A stretch of DNA of 45,603 bases from a virus. The translations under genes and the position numbers were made by a program. The DNA is taken from the IMG/VR virus record IMGVR_UViG_3300032118_000012, positions 1 through 45,603 of that record. One strand, written 5' to 3'. Each line of letters begins with the position of its first letter. Within the stretch, counting starts at the first letter, position 1. This document shows positions 1 to 23,070 of the stretch, piece by piece. Below the pieces are notes generated by a model. That model worked only from the letters and a program-made list of their open reading frames with translations, made no database searches and was not told the origin of the DNA.

Positions 1-19
1 TTCGCCGAGCGTGAGGAAA
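1..19. repeat. Terminal direct repeat, left copy (contig overlap)
   Basis: The 19 bases TTCGCCGAGCGTGAGGAAA at the left end are identical to the last 19 bases of the window. The terminase reading frame continues in phase across the join, so this is most simply the overlap left when a circular or circularly permuted genome is linearised. It need not be a biological terminal repeat. Confidence 0.9.
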
Positions 20-2041
20 CTCGTTCTTCGCCTCGACGATCATCCGGCACGACTCCGCGAACCCCGCTCGTTTTTTCCACACCTTCACGATGTATTTATT
101 TACCCCGTCCCTTCCCATTGCGCCGATTACGACATAATCCGACTGTGCCTTTTCCTTAAAGGAGCAATCGACGGTGAGAATGAATTCATTGAACTTCACC
201 GGGAGAACTTCGTAAAAGAGCCAGTTCTCTCTCTTGAGCATCCCGCCCATCCGGGGAGTCGGGCGCTGTTGGAACTGGCCGGAGAAGCCGAAGGAGCCAA
301 GCCCCTCCTTCATCTCATCGAGGATTTTCGTCCCCTCCCGCTCGGGGTGCATGACGTCGCCTTCCTTGCGGGTCTTCGTCCTTCCTGAGATCGGCCAGAT
401 GTAGGTTTTCTCACGCTCTTCTTCGATAGCCGGGATCTTGAGGTGCTCCCACTTCTCGTTCATCGAAAGGAGGTGCCCGGTGAGGTCGTTCATATGAAGC
501 CGCTGCATGATGATGATGATGACTCCGTTCGCCTTGTCATCGAGCCGGGTACGAAACTTCTGATCGAAAGCATTAAGGTCATTCTGCCTCTCCACGTCGC
601 TCTGCGCATGGCCGGGGTCGTGCGGGTCGTCTACGATGATGCAGTTGTGGACGATGAATCCTTCGCAAATGAAGCTGCGATCCTCCTCCACTTGGAGGTC
701 AAAAACGTCCGTCGTTCCTGGTTCTTTGTATGATGAAACGACAAATGGCAAAAAGTACAAAGGACGATCAGGTTTCCCAACGCGTCGTTTCTCGGATTCT
801 CGTCGATGTGATGAACGACTCGTTTCTTCGTCGAGCCGCATTTCGCGCACGAAGCCCTTTCCCTCATCTCGGAGGACAACCTCTCCCGGAAGTATCGGTT
901 GTTCCGCTGCTTCCATACGTCGCGCCGCCAGTTCGGATTCGCTGAACCCATCATTGCGGTTGCATGGGCGGCCGAGGCGCATGCTTTCGAGCAAAACTTC
1001 GTTCGTTTGCTCGTAGGCCACATTTCCATTTCGCACCTTCCGCATGGGATTTTTGGGAGTGTCCGAAGCTCGCCGGTGTTTCTCATACGCTCCGAGCGGC
1101 ACTTTACCGAGCAGAAGCGCCTTGCGTGACGCTCGGAGATCGGTTGCCCACACGCCTCGCATTTTCTCCGGGCAATCTGGTGTCGCTGGCTCTCCCCCTC
1201 CCGCCAACATGGGAGGGAGCAGAACCTCGGCATATGCCTCTTCCCGTGCCACGGGTCTTTCGGGACGAACTGCTTTCCACAACGTTCGCATGTCCGCGTG
1301 ATATACAGTTCTGGCGTCCTTGGCCGCCACCCACGATTGCGGAGTGAGGAATCGGTGGTCATTCGTACAAGAGATATTACCGCCCTTTCCACCGATCAAC
1401 AAGGTTTTCTGTCTCTCGATTTTTCGAGTTGCGAGAACGCGGCGCCACCGGCCGAGATGCGTGAAAACAAGGTGCCCGACTTCCACGGTTTCGATGGGAA
1501 TCCATCCTTTTTCTGTCAGAACTCTTTGCCCGGCGGAAATGCAATTCCCGCCCTTTCCGATGGCCGTACCGCTCATCGAGGTCGCGATCATGTGCCCGCG
1601 CGCGCTGTTTTCGAACTCGGTCTTGACGTTCTGGTCGCCCATTAGGTGAAAGCGGTCGTCCCACGCGTACTGATACCAAGGCGACTGAATCAGGCGGCGG
1701 CGGTCCACGGAGTGCTTCGTCGAGAGAGACTGGGAGTAGCTCGTCGCGAGGAACCTCTCCTCGGGCTTCCGAATCCACGTCCAGGTCGGAAAGCAGATCG
1801 AGACGAGCGTGGACTTCGTATTGCGCGGCGGGATGTTGATGATGAGCCGCTTAATCTGCCGGAGGTGGCACGCGGTCAGGTACTCGCAGATCAGCCCTTG
1901 GTGCCAGTTCGGCTTGAGGTCGGTTCCGGGCTCCAGGACCTCCCAGGCCGCGCGGAAGAAGTCGTAGAGGTTCTCCTCCGCGAGCCGGTAGTCGAGCCCC
2001 TCGGCCTCACGCAGCTTCGTCGCCAGGACCGCCTTCGTCAT
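1..2041 (-). CDS. terL: Terminase large subunit with intein (N-terminal and middle part)
   Basis: ATPase-nuclease that packages DNA into the prohead. The ATG at 2041 lies inside the end of the small-subunit gene. The frame is open to base 1 and continues at 45603, ending at 45277. The precursor is 782 codons: N-extein 166, intein 300, C-extein 316, giving a 482-residue mature protein, a usual TerL length. A Walker A-like stretch, IPPRNTKST, lies at residues 70-78. Walker B, IIVDDP, starts one residue after the intein. Nuclease-type acidic motifs are TVDCSF, LIEDS and, near the end, PHDDQVDMF. The intein sits between GKGGN and CIIVDDP, so the ATPase should be inactive until splicing. The frame is intact, with no stop anywhere in the intein. 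Confidence 0.95.
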   Translation of the reverse strand, partial: MTKAVLATKLREAEGLDYRLAEENLYDFFRAAWEVLEPGTDLKPNWHQGLICEYLTACHLRQIKRLIINIPPRNTKSTLVSICFPTWTWIRKPEERFLATSYSQSLSTKHSVDRRRLIQSPWYQYAWDDRFHLMGDQNVKTEFENSARGHMIATSMSGTAIGKGGNCISAGQRVLTEKGWIPIETVEVGHLVFTHLGRWRRVLATRKIERQKTLLIGGKGGNISCTNDHRFLTPQSWVAAKDARTVYHADMRTLWKAVRPERPVAREEAYAEVLLPPMLAGGGEPATPDCPEKMRGVWATDLRASRKALLLGKVPLGAYEKHRRASDTPKNPMRKVRNGNVAYEQTNEVLLESMRLGRPCNRNDGFSESELAARRMEAAEQPILPGEVVLRDEGKGFVREMRLDEETSRSSHRRESEKRRVGKPDRPLYFLPFVVSSYKEPGTTDVFDLQVEEDRSFICEGFIVHNCIIVDDPHDPGHAQSDVERQNDLNAFDQKFRTRLDDKANGVIIIIMQRLHMNDLTGHLLSMNEKWEHLKIPAIEEEREKTYIWPISGRTKTRKEGDVMHPEREGTKILDEMKEGLGSFGFSGQFQQRPTPRMGGMLKRENWLFYEVLPVKFNEFILTVDCSFKEKAQSDYVVIGAMGRDGVNKYIVKVWKKRAGFAESCRMIVEAKNEFPHARR
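631..1392 (-). CDS. HNH endonuclease nested out of frame in the intein
   Basis: 253 codons from GTG at 1392; an ATG at 1362 would give 243. Three zinc-finger-like units of the form C-x2-C...FCS-x2-C lie at residues 35-62, 78-98 and 117-138. An HNH domain follows at about 182-221, with C182/C185 and C212/C215 as zinc ligands and a VVHHIDENP...NLIVLCTFCH core. This is typical of a homing endonuclease. The frame is +1 relative to terL. The gene starts at intein codon 51 and stops 11 bases beyond the intein. No well-placed Shine-Dalgarno precedes either start, so expression may need translational coupling or frameshifting. Its expected target is an intein-less terL allele. Confidence 0.85.
   Translation of the reverse strand: MERAVISLVRMTTDSSLRNRGWRPRTPELYITRTCERCGKQFVPKDPWHGKRHMPRFCSLPCWREGESQRHQIARRKCEACGQPISERHARRFCSVKCRSERMRNTGELRTLPKIPCGRCEMEMWPTSKRTKFCSKACASAAHATAMMGSANPNWRRDVWKQRNNRYFRERLSSEMRERASCAKCGSTKKRVVHHIDENPRNDALGNLIVLCTFCHLSFHHTKNQERRTFLTSKWRRIAASFAKDSSSTTASS
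644..1543 (-). other. Intein within TerL (300 residues)
   Basis: Protein-splicing element in frame with terL. It begins with Cys1 (CISAGQRVLT then GWIPIETV, block A). Block B has SCTNDHRFLT with the TxxH pair at residues 60 and 63. It ends VFDLQVEEDRSF then GFIVHN (blocks F and G) with His299-Asn300, and the next extein residue is Cys. All residues for standard Cys1/Asn/Cys+1 splicing are present. The middle, about residues 80-265, has no recognisable endonuclease in this frame. Its repeated M-R-x-[LV]-[WR] and [VL]-L-L pieces are the out-of-frame reading of zinc-finger codons of the nested HNH gene. Confidence 0.92.
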
Positions 2042-2441
2042 CCGAGTGCCTCTTGAGGATCGTTGCGAGCCGGGAGCGCACCTCCTCGGTCGGCAGGTCC
2101 TCGTACCGGATCGGACCGCCGCCCGCGCCCGCGTGCTCGAACTGCTGCGGCACCTTCCCGATGGCCCGGTCGAGGATCAGCCCGAGCGACGCCGTGTCGC
2201 CCTTGACCGCCTTGCGCATCGCCGCGAGGACCATGTGCTGCCAGGCGTTCGTCGATGGCGCGGCCGTGATCGCGTTGAGCTGCTTCACCGTCAGGTATCC
2301 GAACTCGCTGAGGATGCGCGTGAACTCGTCCCGGTTCATGAGCCGCGCGAGCTTCACGTCCTCCGGCGTCCTCGGCTTACCGGGTCCGCCCGGATGCCCA
2401 GGTTTGAAGTCCCGGCCCCCTGTCTTTTTTCCCTTCGCCAT
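2007..2441 (-). CDS. terS: Terminase small subunit-like protein
   Basis: 144 residues. The basic, Gly/Pro-rich N-terminus (KPGHPGGPGKPRTPEDVK) resembles the DUF5681-type start seen in many small terminases. A helical middle and an acidic tail (HSDDEGGPGDEA) follow. The 35-base overlap with the terL start suggests translational coupling. By position it would recognise phage DNA and recruit TerL. The assignment rests mainly on location and the N-terminal motif. The start has an AGAAAGGCG ribosome site. Confidence 0.75.
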   Translation of the reverse strand: MAKGKKTGGRDFKPGHPGGPGKPRTPEDVKLARLMNRDEFTRILSEFGYLTVKQLNAITAAPSTNAWQHMVLAAMRKAVKGDTASLGLILDRAIGKVPQQFEHAGAGGGPIRYEDLPTEEVRSRLATILKRHSDDEGGPGDEAA

Positions 2442-2461
2442 CGCCTTTCTATCGCATTTTT

Positions 2462-4675
2462 CTACAGCCTCCCTATAGGTGAGAACTTGTCCTTGATCTT
2501 GGAAATGTCGCCCTTGTACGCCACGATAATTTTCTGCTCACGCTTCGGGAATTTCCTCATGTTCAGAGTTTTTTTCGCATGAGCAAGACGCGTGAACTCA
2601 GCTTCAAGATAGACGATCTTGTTATAGACTGAAAGGCCGCTCTCTTTGAAAAACAATTCAGTTTCCGACTCTGAGCAATGGAACGCGCCCTTGCTGTTTC
2701 TACTGTCTCCCGTCATGACGACGAAGAACGAATTGTCGTTGAGATGCGCGATTGCCCGCCTGTAGCCAGAGAATAAGGCCTCTCGGAATTCGTCGTAGGT
2801 GCTGAGTGAGTTAATCTCGCCCTCGGGAGCCTTTCCGTCGTAGTCCACATATCGTTCGACCCGGTAATACGGCGGACACGTGAACACTAGATCGAACATC
2901 CCTTCCGGTTCATAGGTCGCGCTGTCGCTCTGGACCCACTGCACCCCTGAGAACTCCTTGCACAACACATTGTTCGCGTCGCACTGGTTCTTCCGCAGTT
3001 CGCTTGCTACGTACTCGTATCCGTAGATCCCCGACACGAATCCAAACTGAACACCACCCCCGAACGGATTATAGATCCGCGTCCCTTCTTTCGGCATGAA
3101 AAATCTCAAGATCACTTCGCACGCAGTCGGGTCGAGCACTGAAGCATTCCCGTTATGAGAGTGCCCGGTCACCACGTTTGCGAAGCCGTTTTCTCCCTGC
3201 CAGCATCCCTCACGAGTCGCGAACGTCGGGTTCGGGATGGCGTTCTTTTCACCGGCCTCAGCTATCTGTCTGTTCCATTCTTTTTTGATCTTGAGCCACT
3301 CAGCCTTCACGGAATCCCATACGTTCGTCATCGTGATGTGAGCTAGAAGTTTCATGCGAACAGTCGATAGATCACCATGAACCATGTAACAAAATCCGCT
3401 CATCGCGAGGTATGTCTTAAATCCGAGGCTCTCGTACAGCTTCGGCGTCTCAAACTTACTCTTAGGATTCGTCGTCATGATCGCCGGATAGCCGCTCGTG
3501 TTCTGCTCGATAACCTTCAGCACCATCTCTTTATAAAGATCGTCGGTATATAGTTCCGGTTTGATGACCGACTGAAGAAGGCAGAACTCCTTACAAACGT
3601 GATTGTTCTGGAACGTCATGAACCCGGAGAACTTCCCGTTCAGCAGGAGGATGATCGCGGAGTGAATCTGCATATTCTTCCTGGCCGCTCGGTGGGCAAT
3701 GCCGTCCTCAATTGCGAGTTTTGAAACGTCCGCTTCGTATCCAGAACCGATTACGCTTTGGACGTGAAGAAACTCGATTACTTCATTGAAAAGTTTCGGT
3801 TGATTCAGTTCCATTTCAGAGGTCTCCTTTTCTTTTGTGTCTGGAAGCGGCCCGACGTCAGCCCCACATTGATCCGGACAGGATCTGCATCCCCCAAGAT
3901 GAATGGAGTCTCGATGCAGCGACACCAACTTTCCTCCGCCGATTGAATCTGCTCTTTTGATAGCCGCTATCTCTCCGCTCAGAAGCCTCGGGTTGTCGGT
4001 GCTGATTCTCAGCGGATTGTCGATAGTGGGTTCAAGGGACAAGAGGTAGTCCTGCTTTTCCTTGCATCTCCTTGACCATTCAGACGTCCCGTAATCGCAC
4101 GTGACGACTCTACAGACGCTTTTGATGCCAGCGGCTCGCAACCTGTCCAGTTCCCCCACCCGATGCGCAATCTCTTCGTCTGTATCCAGGCCGCTTACTG
4201 ATGTATTCATCACAGCCGAGAGCCACACAAGGTCGCTGATGTGCTTTTCGGAAAGCGTGCGCCAGTGTTTCGTGATGATCACTGGAACTTTCTTCGTCCA
4301 CCGAAGCTCTCTGAGAATCGCAATCGTGTGCGTCCAGTCGTAAGACGGGTCGCCAAACGTTCCGACCCGATACCACTGCGCCGGGTATTTCATCATGGCT
4401 CGAATGATCGTCGAGCGATGGTCGATCCCTGTCCATTGCCGACAAATGCTTTTTGTAAAATCTCGTCCGTATCGCGCGGCCGTCCGTGCAGCGTAGCACT
4501 CGCCGTAGCAGCCTCCGTCTGGGTACGCTTGCATTCCGAGAGTACAGCCCTTAATCGTGTCAACGTCTAAGACGCCTTTCCGATTCACTGTTGCAGTCAG
4601 GAAAGGACGATATGTCGTCCGATCCCACGGGGGGATCTCCTCTCCTAGCAGACGGAGTTGTGTTGCGCCCGACAT
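2462..4675 (-). CDS. Three-part protein: Cys-cluster domain, GNAT/Mom-like domain, DNA methyltransferase
   Basis: 737 residues in one frame. Residues 1-280 carry Cys44/Cys56/Cys60 (GCYGECYAA) and a second cluster C263-x2-C-x3-C, reminiscent of phage Gp37/Gp68 (DUF5131) proteins and perhaps metal-binding. Residues 288-445 look like a GNAT acyltransferase fold (NGKFSGFMTF; LYESLGFKTY), the fold of phage Mu Mom, which modifies adenine in DNA. Residues 480-735 are an SAM-dependent DNA methyltransferase with motif I NPFGGG at 536-541 and catalytic motif IV TCPPYY at 599-604. The likely role is covalent modification of phage DNA against restriction; the chemistry is inferred. A strong internal ribosome site precedes Met288, so a 450-residue GNAT-methyltransferase may also be made. 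G+C is lower than in terL. Confidence 0.7.
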   Translation of the reverse strand: MSGATQLRLLGEEIPPWDRTTYRPFLTATVNRKGVLDVDTIKGCTLGMQAYPDGGCYGECYAARTAARYGRDFTKSICRQWTGIDHRSTIIRAMMKYPAQWYRVGTFGDPSYDWTHTIAILRELRWTKKVPVIITKHWRTLSEKHISDLVWLSAVMNTSVSGLDTDEEIAHRVGELDRLRAAGIKSVCRVVTCDYGTSEWSRRCKEKQDYLLSLEPTIDNPLRISTDNPRLLSGEIAAIKRADSIGGGKLVSLHRDSIHLGGCRSCPDQCGADVGPLPDTKEKETSEMELNQPKLFNEVIEFLHVQSVIGSGYEADVSKLAIEDGIAHRAARKNMQIHSAIILLLNGKFSGFMTFQNNHVCKEFCLLQSVIKPELYTDDLYKEMVLKVIEQNTSGYPAIMTTNPKSKFETPKLYESLGFKTYLAMSGFCYMVHGDLSTVRMKLLAHITMTNVWDSVKAEWLKIKKEWNRQIAEAGEKNAIPNPTFATREGCWQGENGFANVVTGHSHNGNASVLDPTACEVILRFFMPKEGTRIYNPFGGGVQFGFVSGIYGYEYVASELRKNQCDANNVLCKEFSGVQWVQSDSATYEPEGMFDLVFTCPPYYRVERYVDYDGKAPEGEINSLSTYDEFREALFSGYRRAIAHLNDNSFFVVMTGDSRNSKGAFHCSESETELFFKESGLSVYNKIVYLEAEFTRLAHAKKTLNMRKFPKREQKIIVAYKGDISKIKDKFSPIGRL
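3812..3830 (-). promoter_or_regulatory. Internal ribosome binding site and ATG within the modification gene
   Basis: On the minus strand AAAGGAGA is followed after 8 bases by ATG, codon 288 of the 737-residue protein, exactly between the N-terminal Cys domain and the GNAT-like domain. Placement at a domain border with near-ideal spacing suggests either a second product or a relic of two formerly separate genes. Confidence 0.6.
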
Positions 4676-15889: not shown

Positions 15890-15940
15890 GATCCGCCTCC
15901 TGGTTCCTGGTTCATGGTTGTTGGTTCGGGCCTTCCATGA

Positions 15941-15966
15941 GGGGGCCGGGGATCGCCTCGGCCCCC
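15941..15966 (-). terminator. G/C-rich hairpin after the DUF932-like gene
   Basis: Minus strand GGGGGCCGAGG, CGAT loop, CCCCGGCCCCC, with one mismatch, 15 bases past the stop at 15982. No U-run follows, so it may act as a pause or RNA-stability element rather than a full terminator. TGGTTC occurs four times at 15900-15928 beside it. Confidence 0.4.
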
Positions 15967-15981
15967 CGAGCGGGGTCCGAA

Positions 15982-17103
15982 TTACGCCGCCCGCGAGATC
16001 TCCGCCCAGTCCGTCTTCGGCAGTTCCAGGATCTTGCCGCCGAGCCGCTCCAGATCGGTCGCCGCGTCGTAGTCCTCCACATCCGCGCTCGCCCGCGTCA
16101 CCGCGTTCAGGAGCCCGTACCGGTTGAGGTCGCCCGCTTGGATCAGGTGCTTCAGGACGGCGTTCTTTACCCCGTCCGCCAAGCCGAACTTCCGCGCCGT
16201 CAGTTCGATGACCGCCGGGAGGTTGTCCGACTCGATCTTGTCCCCAGCCGCCACCGCGACCCGCTCCATCATCGCCTTGAACGCCTCGCGGTTGCACGAT
16301 GCGCGTACCACGTCCCGGACCTTCAGCCAGAACGCCTTGTCGTCCTGTTTCCGCGTCTCGTTCGAGAACAGCTCGACCGCCGCGTCCAGTTCCGCCGCCG
16401 CGCTCCGTCCGATGTGGTACTTCCGCATCGACGAATCATCCATGACGCACAAGTTCGTGCACCACGTCGAGAAGAACCCCGCCGAGACCCGAAGCGTCGA
16501 GGCCCCCACCTCGCTGTTCTGGAGGATGACCGCCGCGACGTTCACGCGCCCCACGTTCCCGTGTCCCTGCCCGAGCACCATCCCGGTAGGCACCGCTTCG
16601 CTCAGCTCCGGGAAAATGGCCTTCAGGTGCAGCCGAGTCTCCGTGACCTCCGCCGAAACGATCGTCGCCTTCGCCTCGATCAGCGCCGGGAGCGACGCTT
16701 CCATCATGTCGGAGTTGTCCAACGGACGATAGCGATCCGAAAGGAGCGCGCGGACATTGCCGTCGAGCGTCCGTACCAGGCGTCGCTTCGCGGGCTCCTT
16801 CTTCATCCAGGTGTTCACGTTCTCCGTCAGCAGCGCGGGCGTCTCCTCGCGCATCCGGTCGTAGTACGCCTTCGGGATGCCGAGCGTCGACGCGATCTGC
16901 CCATGCGCGTGGTTGTTGATCCCGTAGACCCGCCGCCCGCCGTTCACGTCCATCGTGATGACTGGACGAGCCTTGCCCGGCTTCTCCTCATCGGCTCCGA
17001 GGTCCATCACAACCTTCTCCTGCGGCGCGACGAAATCCTTCCGCGTCTCGACCTGCCGCTCCAACTCCGCGGCCAACTCTTGTAATGACCTTCCTGTTTT
17101 CAC
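15982..17103 (-). CDS. DUF932-like phage/plasmid protein (373 aa)
   Basis: Contains LLSDRYRPLDNSDMMEASLP near residues 120-140, the hallmark of DUF932 proteins of phages, plasmids and conjugative elements, and the usual mixed alpha/beta body. Molecular function is not established. GTG start at 17103 preceded by AAGGAGACGCAA. An open frame of 382 codons on the other strand is its GC-rich shadow. Confidence 0.75.
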   Translation of the reverse strand: MKTGRSLQELAAELERQVETRKDFVAPQEKVVMDLGADEEKPGKARPVITMDVNGGRRVYGINNHAHGQIASTLGIPKAYYDRMREETPALLTENVNTWMKKEPAKRRLVRTLDGNVRALLSDRYRPLDNSDMMEASLPALIEAKATIVSAEVTETRLHLKAIFPELSEAVPTGMVLGQGHGNVGRVNVAAVILQNSEVGASTLRVSAGFFSTWCTNLCVMDDSSMRKYHIGRSAAAELDAAVELFSNETRKQDDKAFWLKVRDVVRASCNREAFKAMMERVAVAAGDKIESDNLPAVIELTARKFGLADGVKNAVLKHLIQAGDLNRYGLLNAVTRASADVEDYDAATDLERLGGKILELPKTDWAEISRAA

Positions 17104-20607: not shown

Positions 20608-23070
20608 TCAGGTTGCGTATCCCGGAATTTTAACTGTTCCGATCGCGGTTTGCATATAAATCCACTCCGAGGGGTCGCCAAGGGCCTTGCCATCGCCTCC
20701 GTAGTAGTCGGTGAACGTCGGCGGGGTACCAGCCAGCGTGGGGGCTGCGGCCGCGTCCACGATCTTCAGCACTCGCGTCCCATCCGACGCCGCCCCGAGT
20801 CCGATGCGCGCGAACTGAGGGGCCGCTGCGATTTTCACGTTCTGGTCAAACCAATCGTCTAGCGTCGGGTTCCCGGAGAGGGTAAGAACCCGGTCGGCAT
20901 TGCCAACGTCGAGAGTCAGAATTCGGTTTGCCGCGATTCCCGTACATGTCGCCAAAATTCGGAGTTCATAGGCCGTAATAGAATCCTTGAGCCAGAGATC
21001 CTTGAACCCGAAAGATGCCTTGCCGAGACTCATCGCCCCCCGGACCGCGCTCCAGATTCCAACGGAGTCCACGGAGATCCGGTCCGTCGAGGCCGTCGCG
21101 ACCGTAAAAACGTTCGTGGCGGACGGCCACCAGTAGACGGTCCCGAGCGCCGTCGTCGATGATCCGGCCCTCCATTTCCCGGTCGCCTGCGCATCCCCCG
21201 CGAACATCCCCGCAAAAGTTACTCCGCTGCCAGTTCCACCGTAGACACCGTAGGTGCGGGTAAACGTGCCGGTCGGTGGGACAAATTCCCCCCCATATCC
21301 CGCCGTCGCGACGGTCGGGGTGACGACCGCGAACCCCGTCATGCCGTAGCCGACGATTTTCGGAATCGTGCACGTCGCGGGGAGTCCGATCATCACTGAT
21401 TTCAGGTTGTACAAATAGATGTTCGACTTCAGCGGAAACAGCATCGACGATAGATTCGAGGTGATAAAATTGATCGCGTGTCCGGAGATCACGGACGTCG
21501 CGGTGTTCTGCCGCGCGGCGAATGTCTCGAACAGGAAATCCCCGATCCCTCCGGCCCCGATCTCCGTCCAGTTCACGCCGTCCGTGCTCGTGAATCCCCA
21601 TCCTGTCGCATATCCGCCCGAGGTCTCATCTGCCGCGATATATACGGTATCCGTCCACGACGAGGATGTGATGACGAGGGCGAGAACTCCAGCTCCGACG
21701 TATTTGTACGTCGAGAGGATAAACTCGATGACCTCTCCGGCAGGGTCAGTCGTCAACGCGGAGGCGTCGAATGTCCCGCTGCCGACGGGACCCCCGGTAG
21801 GTTTGTGCGTTACTCCGTCCGTGGCATACAGCGTGAGCGTGAGCGTGATCGGTCCTGAGCCTGTGCGGTACGCCTTGAAATCGAGATAGTGTAGCAACTC
21901 CGTCGCCGTGATCGTGATCGACTCGCAAGTCCGGGCGGTACCGATGACCTCATGCCAGGCGTCCTCGACCGTGTCTCCATACTCCCACGAGTCCCAGTGC
22001 TCCCGGCCCAAATTGTAATTGCCGTCGGTATATTGGAGACCTTGGTACAATTCCATCGTCTCCTCGCCCGCCGAGATCTGCGTCGGCCCGATGTCCTGGT
22101 CGAACGTTGGTTGCATATAAAGCGGGGACTGCAGCGAATAGGCGCCGATGCGGTTGTCATACTGCTCAGCGATGTCGCTCGCGTCCTCGGCGAGGGTTAG
22201 AAGATATTTCCGCGAGGGCCCACTGGTTCGCGCGGTCCCGCGTCCGACCATGATGTGTTCCGGGAGCAATGTGTGTCCGTGACCGGCGAGCGCATACGGG
22301 ACAGTTCCGTTGACCGTATATTGTTTTCCCGCTCCGATATCTATCCCGCCCGAAAGTGCGAGATCGCCCGTCTTCGTAAGAGCTAAAATATCCAATCCGC
22401 CATGATCGACGGAAAAACGTACCGTGGATTTGCCGAGAACCGAGCGGTCCATTCCCCAGAAATGCCATTCCGTCGTATCGGCGACCGTCGCCTGCCGTGA
22501 GGCGTGGATGAGAAACTCGGCTAGCCCCGACCCCTCGTCTCCATTGATGTACCAGCCCGTATAGATGTCCCCGTCCCAATCCCCCGAGGAATCCGTCCGT
22601 TCTCCAATCCATTCCATTGATACGGAGCCTCCGGCGAAGGAAGCTACGTTGAGGTCGATAAACGCCTTCTGGTGGTATGCGCCAACGTGGCCTACGAAAC
22701 CGTCCCCAATTTCCAGGAGATAACGCGACTCTTTTCCGTCCGGGACTTTGATGAAATCGCGGATGTGTTTTTCGGCGGCGTTCCCGTACCAACTTCGCTG
22801 AAGAACATTTACGCCAAGAGAATCGAGATGATTGAGGACGCTGGCCGTGGACCCTTTCAGATCCAGAACGCTATTCAACTGCGCGAGTCCGATGAGAGAT
22901 CCATACCCGAATTGGTATCCGCCCGAGGCGCTTTTCAGAATTAGATCACCGCGCGATCCGACAATCGCCTCGTTCGTTCCGGAGCGGATGAGCTGGAGCG
23001 TATCGCCATCGGGCGAGGTGAGACGGTCGACCTGCGAGACCGTGAACGGCCGCTGGATTACGGCGCTCAC
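20608..23070 (-). CDS. Tail fibre / tip protein (820 aa)
   Basis: Large beta-rich protein. The last 150 residues contain CTGIAANRILTLDVGNADRV then LTLSGNPTL, a module frequent in phage tail fibres, and end with GTVKIPGYAT. Other parts have WHFWGMDRS and Gly-rich strands. Likely a host-binding fibre or tip. The GTG start overlaps the spanin gene's stop. The location after the lysis cassette is unusual but not unknown. Confidence 0.75.
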   Translation of the reverse strand: MSAVIQRPFTVSQVDRLTSPDGDTLQLIRSGTNEAIVGSRGDLILKSASGGYQFGYGSLIGLAQLNSVLDLKGSTASVLNHLDSLGVNVLQRSWYGNAAEKHIRDFIKVPDGKESRYLLEIGDGFVGHVGAYHQKAFIDLNVASFAGGSVSMEWIGERTDSSGDWDGDIYTGWYINGDEGSGLAEFLIHASRQATVADTTEWHFWGMDRSVLGKSTVRFSVDHGGLDILALTKTGDLALSGGIDIGAGKQYTVNGTVPYALAGHGHTLLPEHIMVGRGTARTSGPSRKYLLTLAEDASDIAEQYDNRIGAYSLQSPLYMQPTFDQDIGPTQISAGEETMELYQGLQYTDGNYNLGREHWDSWEYGDTVEDAWHEVIGTARTCESITITATELLHYLDFKAYRTGSGPITLTLTLYATDGVTHKPTGGPVGSGTFDASALTTDPAGEVIEFILSTYKYVGAGVLALVITSSSWTDTVYIAADETSGGYATGWGFTSTDGVNWTEIGAGGIGDFLFETFAARQNTATSVISGHAINFITSNLSSMLFPLKSNIYLYNLKSVMIGLPATCTIPKIVGYGMTGFAVVTPTVATAGYGGEFVPPTGTFTRTYGVYGGTGSGVTFAGMFAGDAQATGKWRAGSSTTALGTVYWWPSATNVFTVATASTDRISVDSVGIWSAVRGAMSLGKASFGFKDLWLKDSITAYELRILATCTGIAANRILTLDVGNADRVLTLSGNPTLDDWFDQNVKIAAAPQFARIGLGAASDGTRVLKIVDAAAAPTLAGTPPTFTDYYGGDGKALGDPSEWIYMQTAIGTVKIPGYAT

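Follow-up and report, generated by a model that had tools for sequence, protein, structure and literature searches.

An out-of-frame zinc-finger HNH endonuclease gene within a terL mini-intein: a probable two-protein mobile element of tailed phages

The large terminase gene (terL) of a tailed phage was found to carry an intein whose DNA also encodes, in the +1 frame relative to terL, a zinc-finger HNH endonuclease. The whole stretch of DNA analysed, here called the window, is a virus record of 45,603 bases with portal, head protease, tape measure and baseplate genes. We consider it highly likely that the insertion is a mobile element specifying two proteins, namely a mini-intein and, within it, a zinc-finger HNH homing endonuclease that is translated independently. 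The observations that support this assignment are the two frames themselves, their homologies, the dual selection seen in relatives, the avoidance of stop codons (in the window too), recurrence in other phages and the existence of empty insertion sites. The coordinates of all features are collected in Table 1.

The terL gene lies on the minus strand, starts at position 2041 and continues past the left end of the window. No close relatives of it were found among the viral contigs searched. The intein interrupts terL directly before the Walker B motif (|C-IIVDDP), with the codon of Cys+1 at 643-641. All of the splicing residues are present: Cys1, the block B motif T60-N-D-H63, the block F sequence VFDL with Asp282, His299-Asn300 in block G, and Cys+1; in an alignment of the family C1, T60, H63, D282 and N300 are conserved. 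The intein matched the Pfam family Intein_splicing (E=2.7e-6) and the intein_Cterm model TIGR01443 (20.3 bits, cut-off 15.6). An AlphaFold model of the intein frame is confident in both halves of the Hint domain (residues 1-80 and 271-300, pLDDT of the blocks 82-97) and builds almost nothing of residues 96-252. Foldseek searches with this model returned the gp41-1 intein (1.5e-5) and the DnaX and DnaB inteins, so that the Pfam match, the well-modelled ends (pLDDT >82) and the structural neighbours all indicate a Hint fold. The N-extein was aligned with the intein-less TerL proteins of Roseobacter phage CRP-902, Aeromonas phage vB_AsaM-56 and Paracoccus phage Pkon1 (34-41% identical), which are uninterrupted at this site and have no Cys there; the intein is thus an in-frame insertion at a conserved site that is empty in relatives. 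The sole match to the window's intein in a search for close relatives was an unrelated intein in another gene (L023). A group I intron or other structured RNA was also considered and rejected, there being no Rfam match in the window.

Table 1. Positions of the terL exteins, the intein and the overlapping HNH gene in the window
Feature	Position	Strand	Basis or remark
terL N-extein (ATPase domain up to the Walker B strand)	1544..2041	-	PHROG 4758 terminase large subunit, 2.3e-48, residues 18-168
Intein, 300 codons, in frame with terL, stop-free	644..1543	-	Cys1 codon 1543-1541 to Asn300 codon 646-644
Hint N-terminal half (blocks A and B; T60xxH63)	1274..1543	-	AlphaFold pLDDT 84-97 to residue 80; profile match to solved mini-inteins, best 8.6e-24
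Intein residues 96-252, open unstructured filler under the HNH gene	788..1258	-	pLDDT <50 almost throughout; stop avoidance
Hint C-terminal half (blocks F and G, VFDLQVEEDRSFICEGFIVHN)	644..742	-	TIGR01443 above cut-off; pLDDT 82-94 over residues 271-300
terL C-extein (Cys+1, Walker B onward; cut by the window end)	2..643	-	PHROG 38 terminase large subunit, 4.8e-67
Overprinted zinc-finger HNH endonuclease gene, +1 frame relative to terL, at most 253 codons	631..1392	-	PHROG 1271; stop 633-631; open frame from 1395
Candidate HNH starts	GTG 1392, ATG 1362, CTG 1308	-	Shine-Dalgarno sequence absent or weak
Zinc finger 1 (C35-C62 of the HNH protein)	1207..1290	-	C35, C38 invariant in an alignment of 14 HNH proteins
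Zinc finger 2 (C78-C98)	1099..1161	-	C94, C98 invariant (14 HNH proteins)
Zinc finger 3 (C117-C138)	979..1044	-	C117, C120, C134, C138 invariant (14 HNH proteins)
HNH catalytic/zinc core (CxxC...HHIDEN...N...CxxC..H)	733..849	-	C182, C185, H194, H195, N207, C212, C215, H220 invariant (14 HNH proteins)

The product of the overlapping frame matched PHROG 1271, annotated HNH endonuclease, with E=2.3e-23. Its match to the Pfam HNH family is weak when the window's protein is used alone (0.0073), and relatives match HNH_3 at 3.2e-6; homologous out-of-frame genes occur in L002 and in Gordonia phage Clown. The three zinc fingers are of the CxxC...FCSxxC type. The AlphaFold model places two strands and a helix on the HNH motif (strands 191-195 and 208-212, helix 213-221), forming a beta-beta-alpha core, and the protein therefore has both the catalytic and zinc residues and the fold of an HNH endonuclease. 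Foldseek gave weak matches to this model, none with E <0.09, and these were mostly HNH enzymes. The HNH frame overruns the intein by 10 nt into the C-extein, such that its last codons are extein DNA. The original prediction, made from the DNA letters alone, had proposed a 300-residue intein with every splicing residue, open in frame with terL, and a 253-codon HNH gene with three zinc fingers in the +1 frame over the same DNA. Both proposals are borne out: the intein has exact C1-N300 limits followed by Cys+1, is free of stops and is recognised by Pfam and TIGR01443, and the HNH gene is recognised by PHROG 1271, its zinc fingers and its HNH/zinc core.

Other genes of the window drew our attention. 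A 737-residue gene at 2462-4675 (minus strand) adjoins the terminase genes. Its C-terminal third is a DNA methyltransferase (PHROG 12517, 1e-38; PHROG 498, 2e-32), its N-terminal part contains Cys motifs and its middle appears acetyltransferase-like by eye; no Pfam match at 1e-4 was obtained for this gene, which is possibly a fused DNA-modification enzyme. An 820-codon frame at 20608-23070 (minus strand) has no PHROG or Pfam match and encloses long same-strand frames at 20966-21601 and 22166-22792, both without a PHROG match; the nesting is probably an effect of high G+C. Two antisense frames cover nearly identical DNA at 15937-17085 (plus strand, 382 codons) and 15982-17103 (minus strand, 373 codons), neither with a Pfam match at 1e-4.

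Searches with the HNH protein located 67 distinct intein alleles in which both intein ends were recognised and an HNH gene lies in another frame; alleles >99.5% identical were removed before counting and lineages were counted by hand. The alleles fall into three lineages with the frame fixed in each. Lineage I (29 alleles, all +1) sits in TerL before Walker B and includes the window, Clown (gp5) and Synechococcus phage S-EIVl. Lineage II (29 alleles, all +2) sits in the TerL nuclease domain and includes Tetrasphaera phage TJE1, Acinetobacter phage Highwayman and a Rhodobacteraceae phage. Lineage III (9 alleles, all +1) is found in DNA polymerase I (PolA). The HNH is accordingly never in the Hint frame, as the endonuclease of a canonical large intein is: it is at +1 in the window and at +1 or +2 in 67/67 alleles. 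The only in-frame HNH inteins among the matches were those of a ribonucleotide reductase, RNR (L017), and an AAA ATPase (L018), a ratio that is biased by the use of out-of-frame HNHs as queries. Judged from these sequences, an out-of-frame HNH gene in an intein is a real, old and recurrent arrangement. In Brevundimonas phage Poludnitsa (L061) an HNH gene of the lineage II type was observed free-standing at 2438-3010, in an unannotated gap directly 3′ of terL; it is possible that this represents a source or an escape form of the intein-borne genes.

The pattern of substitution distinguishes the two frames. Codon periodicity of substitutions was measured in relatives, and the window itself was assessed by G+C periodicity and by stop shuffling. 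Among 19 colinear lineage I alleles of 337 codons each, pairs differ chiefly at intein-frame position 3 within both exteins (0.55) and the intein ends; over codons ~35-300 the peak is at intein-frame position 1, equivalent to HNH position 3. The overlap in lineage III has the same peak as in lineage I, and in lineage II the peak shifts to intein-frame position 2, which is again HNH position 3. In the window, the G+C peak by codon position likewise moves to the HNH third position within the overlap. Synonymous shuffling of the HNH codons predicts about 551 intein-frame stops in the overlap of the 67 alleles, a figure summed over related alleles and not a count of independent trials, and none is seen. 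In the window alone none is seen against 5.8 expected (P=0.0006), which rules out an open frame by chance. The third frame serves as a control: it has 7 stops against 6.4 expected in the window and about the expected number in each other allele too. Because the overlap varies at HNH position 3 and yet the intein frame never contains a stop, we conclude that the nuclease has been conserved as a protein and that the intein frame has been held open. The HNH is on this evidence a real, selected gene, whose frame relation is kept in all 67 alleles, and the earlier suggestion that the intein frame stays open because terL is essential is supported by the lack of stops in every allele.

The fourfold degenerate sites of the HNH frame allow the constraint on the intein protein to be gauged. 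At codons 110-250 their divergence is 0.59-0.64, compared to 0.62-0.65 at extein fourfold sites; since the two rates are the same, the intein protein of the relatives is judged to have no measurable amino-acid constraint there, the filler being free. At codons 38-75, where the HNH frame lies over the Hint N-terminal half, divergence is slowed to 0.35, which fits constraint in both frames, that is dual coding. We note that in the S-EIVl-like TerL inteins (L173-L205) Hint block B and the HNH N-terminus both seem conserved over codons 38-75, with fourfold change at about half the extein rate or less.

How the nuclease is made was approached through its possible start sites. In lineage II a Shine-Dalgarno sequence at -6 kcal/mol or below precedes the HNH start in 38% of cases, against 10% of ordinary in-frame ATG/GTG codons (p=0.013); examples are AAAAGGAGG, TGGAGG, GGGAGGG and CGGAGGG. 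The corresponding values in lineage III are 44% and 9% (p=0.086). The three candidate starts in the window have no Shine-Dalgarno sequence or only a weak one, though most other genes of the window have one, and nothing convincing was found before the HNH start in the S-EIVl-like group. As C35 and C38 of finger 1 are invariant, the window's start is placed upstream of 1290. Two window-like relatives of lineage I (L196 and L170) have an ATG start at about the position of the window's GTG; in L196 the ATG is at intein nt 157 and is preceded by AAGGAGA, the window's GTG being at intein nt 151. Programmed frameshifting, by which ribosomes translating terL would change to the HNH frame within the intein and yield an N-extein/Hint-N/HNH fusion, would account for the missing Shine-Dalgarno sequences in the window and the S-EIVl-like group, and would suit the several members whose HNH frame stays open for a good distance ahead of zinc finger 1. 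We regard it as unlikely, because opposite slips would be needed (+1 for lineages I and III, -1 for II), strong Shine-Dalgarno sequences stand directly before ATG/GTG in many lineage II members, and L196 and L170 have their own ATG starts. Given the lineage II sites, and given that one slip direction cannot serve both the +1 and the +2 lineages, internal initiation is favoured as the best general model for expression of the HNH. The original prediction had left internal initiation and frameshifting as alternatives for a separately made nuclease; the former gains support from lineage II, even if the window itself lacks a convincing Shine-Dalgarno sequence, and the latter is disfavoured. A canonical intein for which ribosomes would shift twice in a programmed manner, first to the HNH frame and later back, was rejected, since intein-frame stops would then accumulate freely in the middle and 0/67 alleles have one.

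Other readings concern what the HNH gene is for, or whether it functions at all. HNH proteins encoded beside terminases, of the HK97 gp74 type, are reportedly packaging partners (as Kala et al. are said to have described in 2014), and a role of the present HNH in DNA packaging in place of homing would be in keeping with the location of two of the three lineages in terL and with the free-standing HNH relatives in phage genomes. Against this, the third lineage belongs to the DNA polymerase I gene, with an HNH akin to those carried by introns; the element is entirely missing from close TerL relatives; and the three sites occupied, in two genes, are each within an intein. A packaging role is consequently thought improbable. 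That the element is decaying, with the HNH gene a relic open only because terL must stay open, could be argued from the weak Pfam score and the absence of a clear start signal in the window. We consider this quite improbable in view of the fully intact zinc and HNH residues in the window, the purifying selection on the HNH frame in relatives and the G+C periodicity of the window, which follows the HNH frame. An assembly or sequencing error, two indels having shifted an HNH that is truly in frame, comes to mind for a record of an uncultivated virus; it has next to no chance of being correct when dozens of assemblies made independently, and the finished genomes of isolates, have the identical frame relation, and when the intein frame avoids stops. 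Compensating indels, which had been named beforehand as the result that would overturn the assignment, are excluded by the same arrangement in the finished genomes of Clown, S-EIVl, TJE1 and Highwayman.

The two-protein element that we prefer would operate as follows. The terL frame would be translated as a mini-intein, consisting of the Hint N-terminal half, a long disordered filler and the Hint C-terminal half, which would splice itself out of the essential packaging ATPase. A start of its own in the +1 frame would give a free-standing zinc-finger HNH homing endonuclease from the same DNA, and this would cut intein-less terL near Walker B, so that the element is copied into it. The HNH gene would have invaded the intein loop in a shifted frame; from then on the protein read in the HNH frame would have been conserved, and stops kept out of the terL frame to allow TerL still to be made. 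Splicing, separate translation, DNA cleavage and homing of the window's element are what we infer from these comparisons.

The distribution of the elements is that of a homing endonuclease gene: the HNH is encoded inside the element, presence is sporadic and empty sites exist. TerL alleles 95% identical to that of S-EIVl are without an intein, and empty alleles have Val in place of Cys at +1 in 62/63 of those aligned. In lineage I intein and extein divergence largely co-vary (r=0.82), and within the S-EIVl group the comparison of L175 with the L188 type gives 0.87 for the intein and about 0.7 for the extein; these data offer at most weak hints of recent horizontal transfer within that group or of recent homing in lineage I. 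The HNH of the PolA lineage has homologues, with E down to about 1e-24, among the HNH genes that introns of T7-like phage DNA polymerases carry. The intron of Providencia phage PS3 follows TGRLSSSNPNL and the PolA inteins follow GRLS or its equivalents; both sites belong to one polymerase motif, with the intron some six codons downstream of the intein site. No Rfam match was obtained in L063, L055 or L024, and the annotated PS3 intron is thus without Rfam confirmation. Homologous HNH genes are therefore seen in PolA inteins (L144-L153, L012 and L050) and in an intron (L063) at the same DNA polymerase motif. This suggests that one nuclease family has moved between protein-splicing and RNA-splicing hosts.

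Related arrangements are on record. A 2025 preprint by Gosselin et al. (bioRxiv 10.1101/2025.01.02.630785) is said, by its title, to concern actinobacteriophage inteins of 'non-canonical architecture'; it may describe similar inteins, and Clown, as a Gordonia phage, would be within its scope. The ShiLan-type insertion, an out-of-frame zinc-finger HNH in mycobacteriophage DNA methylases, was judged not to be an intein by its authors (Arsenault, Gosselin and Gogarten 2025, PMC11855218). Like the window's element it is an in-frame, stop-free insertion in a phage gene that hides a zinc-finger HNH in another frame, and the HNH of Clown TerL matches that of ShiLan (tblastn, 2e-4), such that the two may belong to one broad family. 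It differs in that no splicing domain can be detected in it, and it is believed to be retained in the methylase (PMC11855218), whereas in the window a complete Hint intein surrounds and overlaps the HNH; the elements described here are moreover in TerL or PolA, in two frames and in many phage groups. Canonical large inteins (PI-SceI, and the mycobacteriophage TerL inteins of PMC5050341) share the Hint domain, the conserved ATPase-motif site and an endonuclease in the middle; the window-type endonuclease is instead out of frame and would have to be made as a separate protein. The available part of the same paper places the mycobacteriophage TerL inteins mostly in the ATPase domain and describes no hidden frame. 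Cyanophage Mic1 TerL has two inteins, one with an endonuclease domain, and again no hidden frame is described in the available part of that report (PMC7156551). The HNH introns of T7-like phage DNA polymerases such as that of PS3 resemble the present elements in that the endonuclease is read apart from the spliced host gene, and share with the PolA lineage a homologous HNH and the same motif; they differ in that splicing is of RNA, which frees the intron from having to be open in the host frame. Our literature search uncovered no further account of an intein whose endonuclease is out of frame. A hidden out-of-frame HNH outside inteins is already known; notable here are the intein host, the three insertion sites, the two genes and the two frames.

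In the textbook intein the endonuclease is a domain of the spliced protein and its dose is tied to that of the host protein. We think it fairly likely that the elements described here make up a widespread, largely unrecognised class of intein, whose homing endonuclease is encoded out of frame over the intein DNA and produced as a protein of its own, with probably three origins, three sites and two frames. Many phage 'mini-inteins' with long structureless middles would then conceal a nuclease, and splicing and homing would be expressed and evolve independently. The two functions would share DNA and not a polypeptide, as in group I introns, with an essential gene keeping the filler frame open. 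Such elements provide a natural system for the study of dual-coding selection, in which the third frame is a built-in control. The results also suggest that intein surveys reading one frame would call these elements endonuclease-less. Pairs of empty and occupied phages would offer a direct route to testing how inteins gain new endonucleases.
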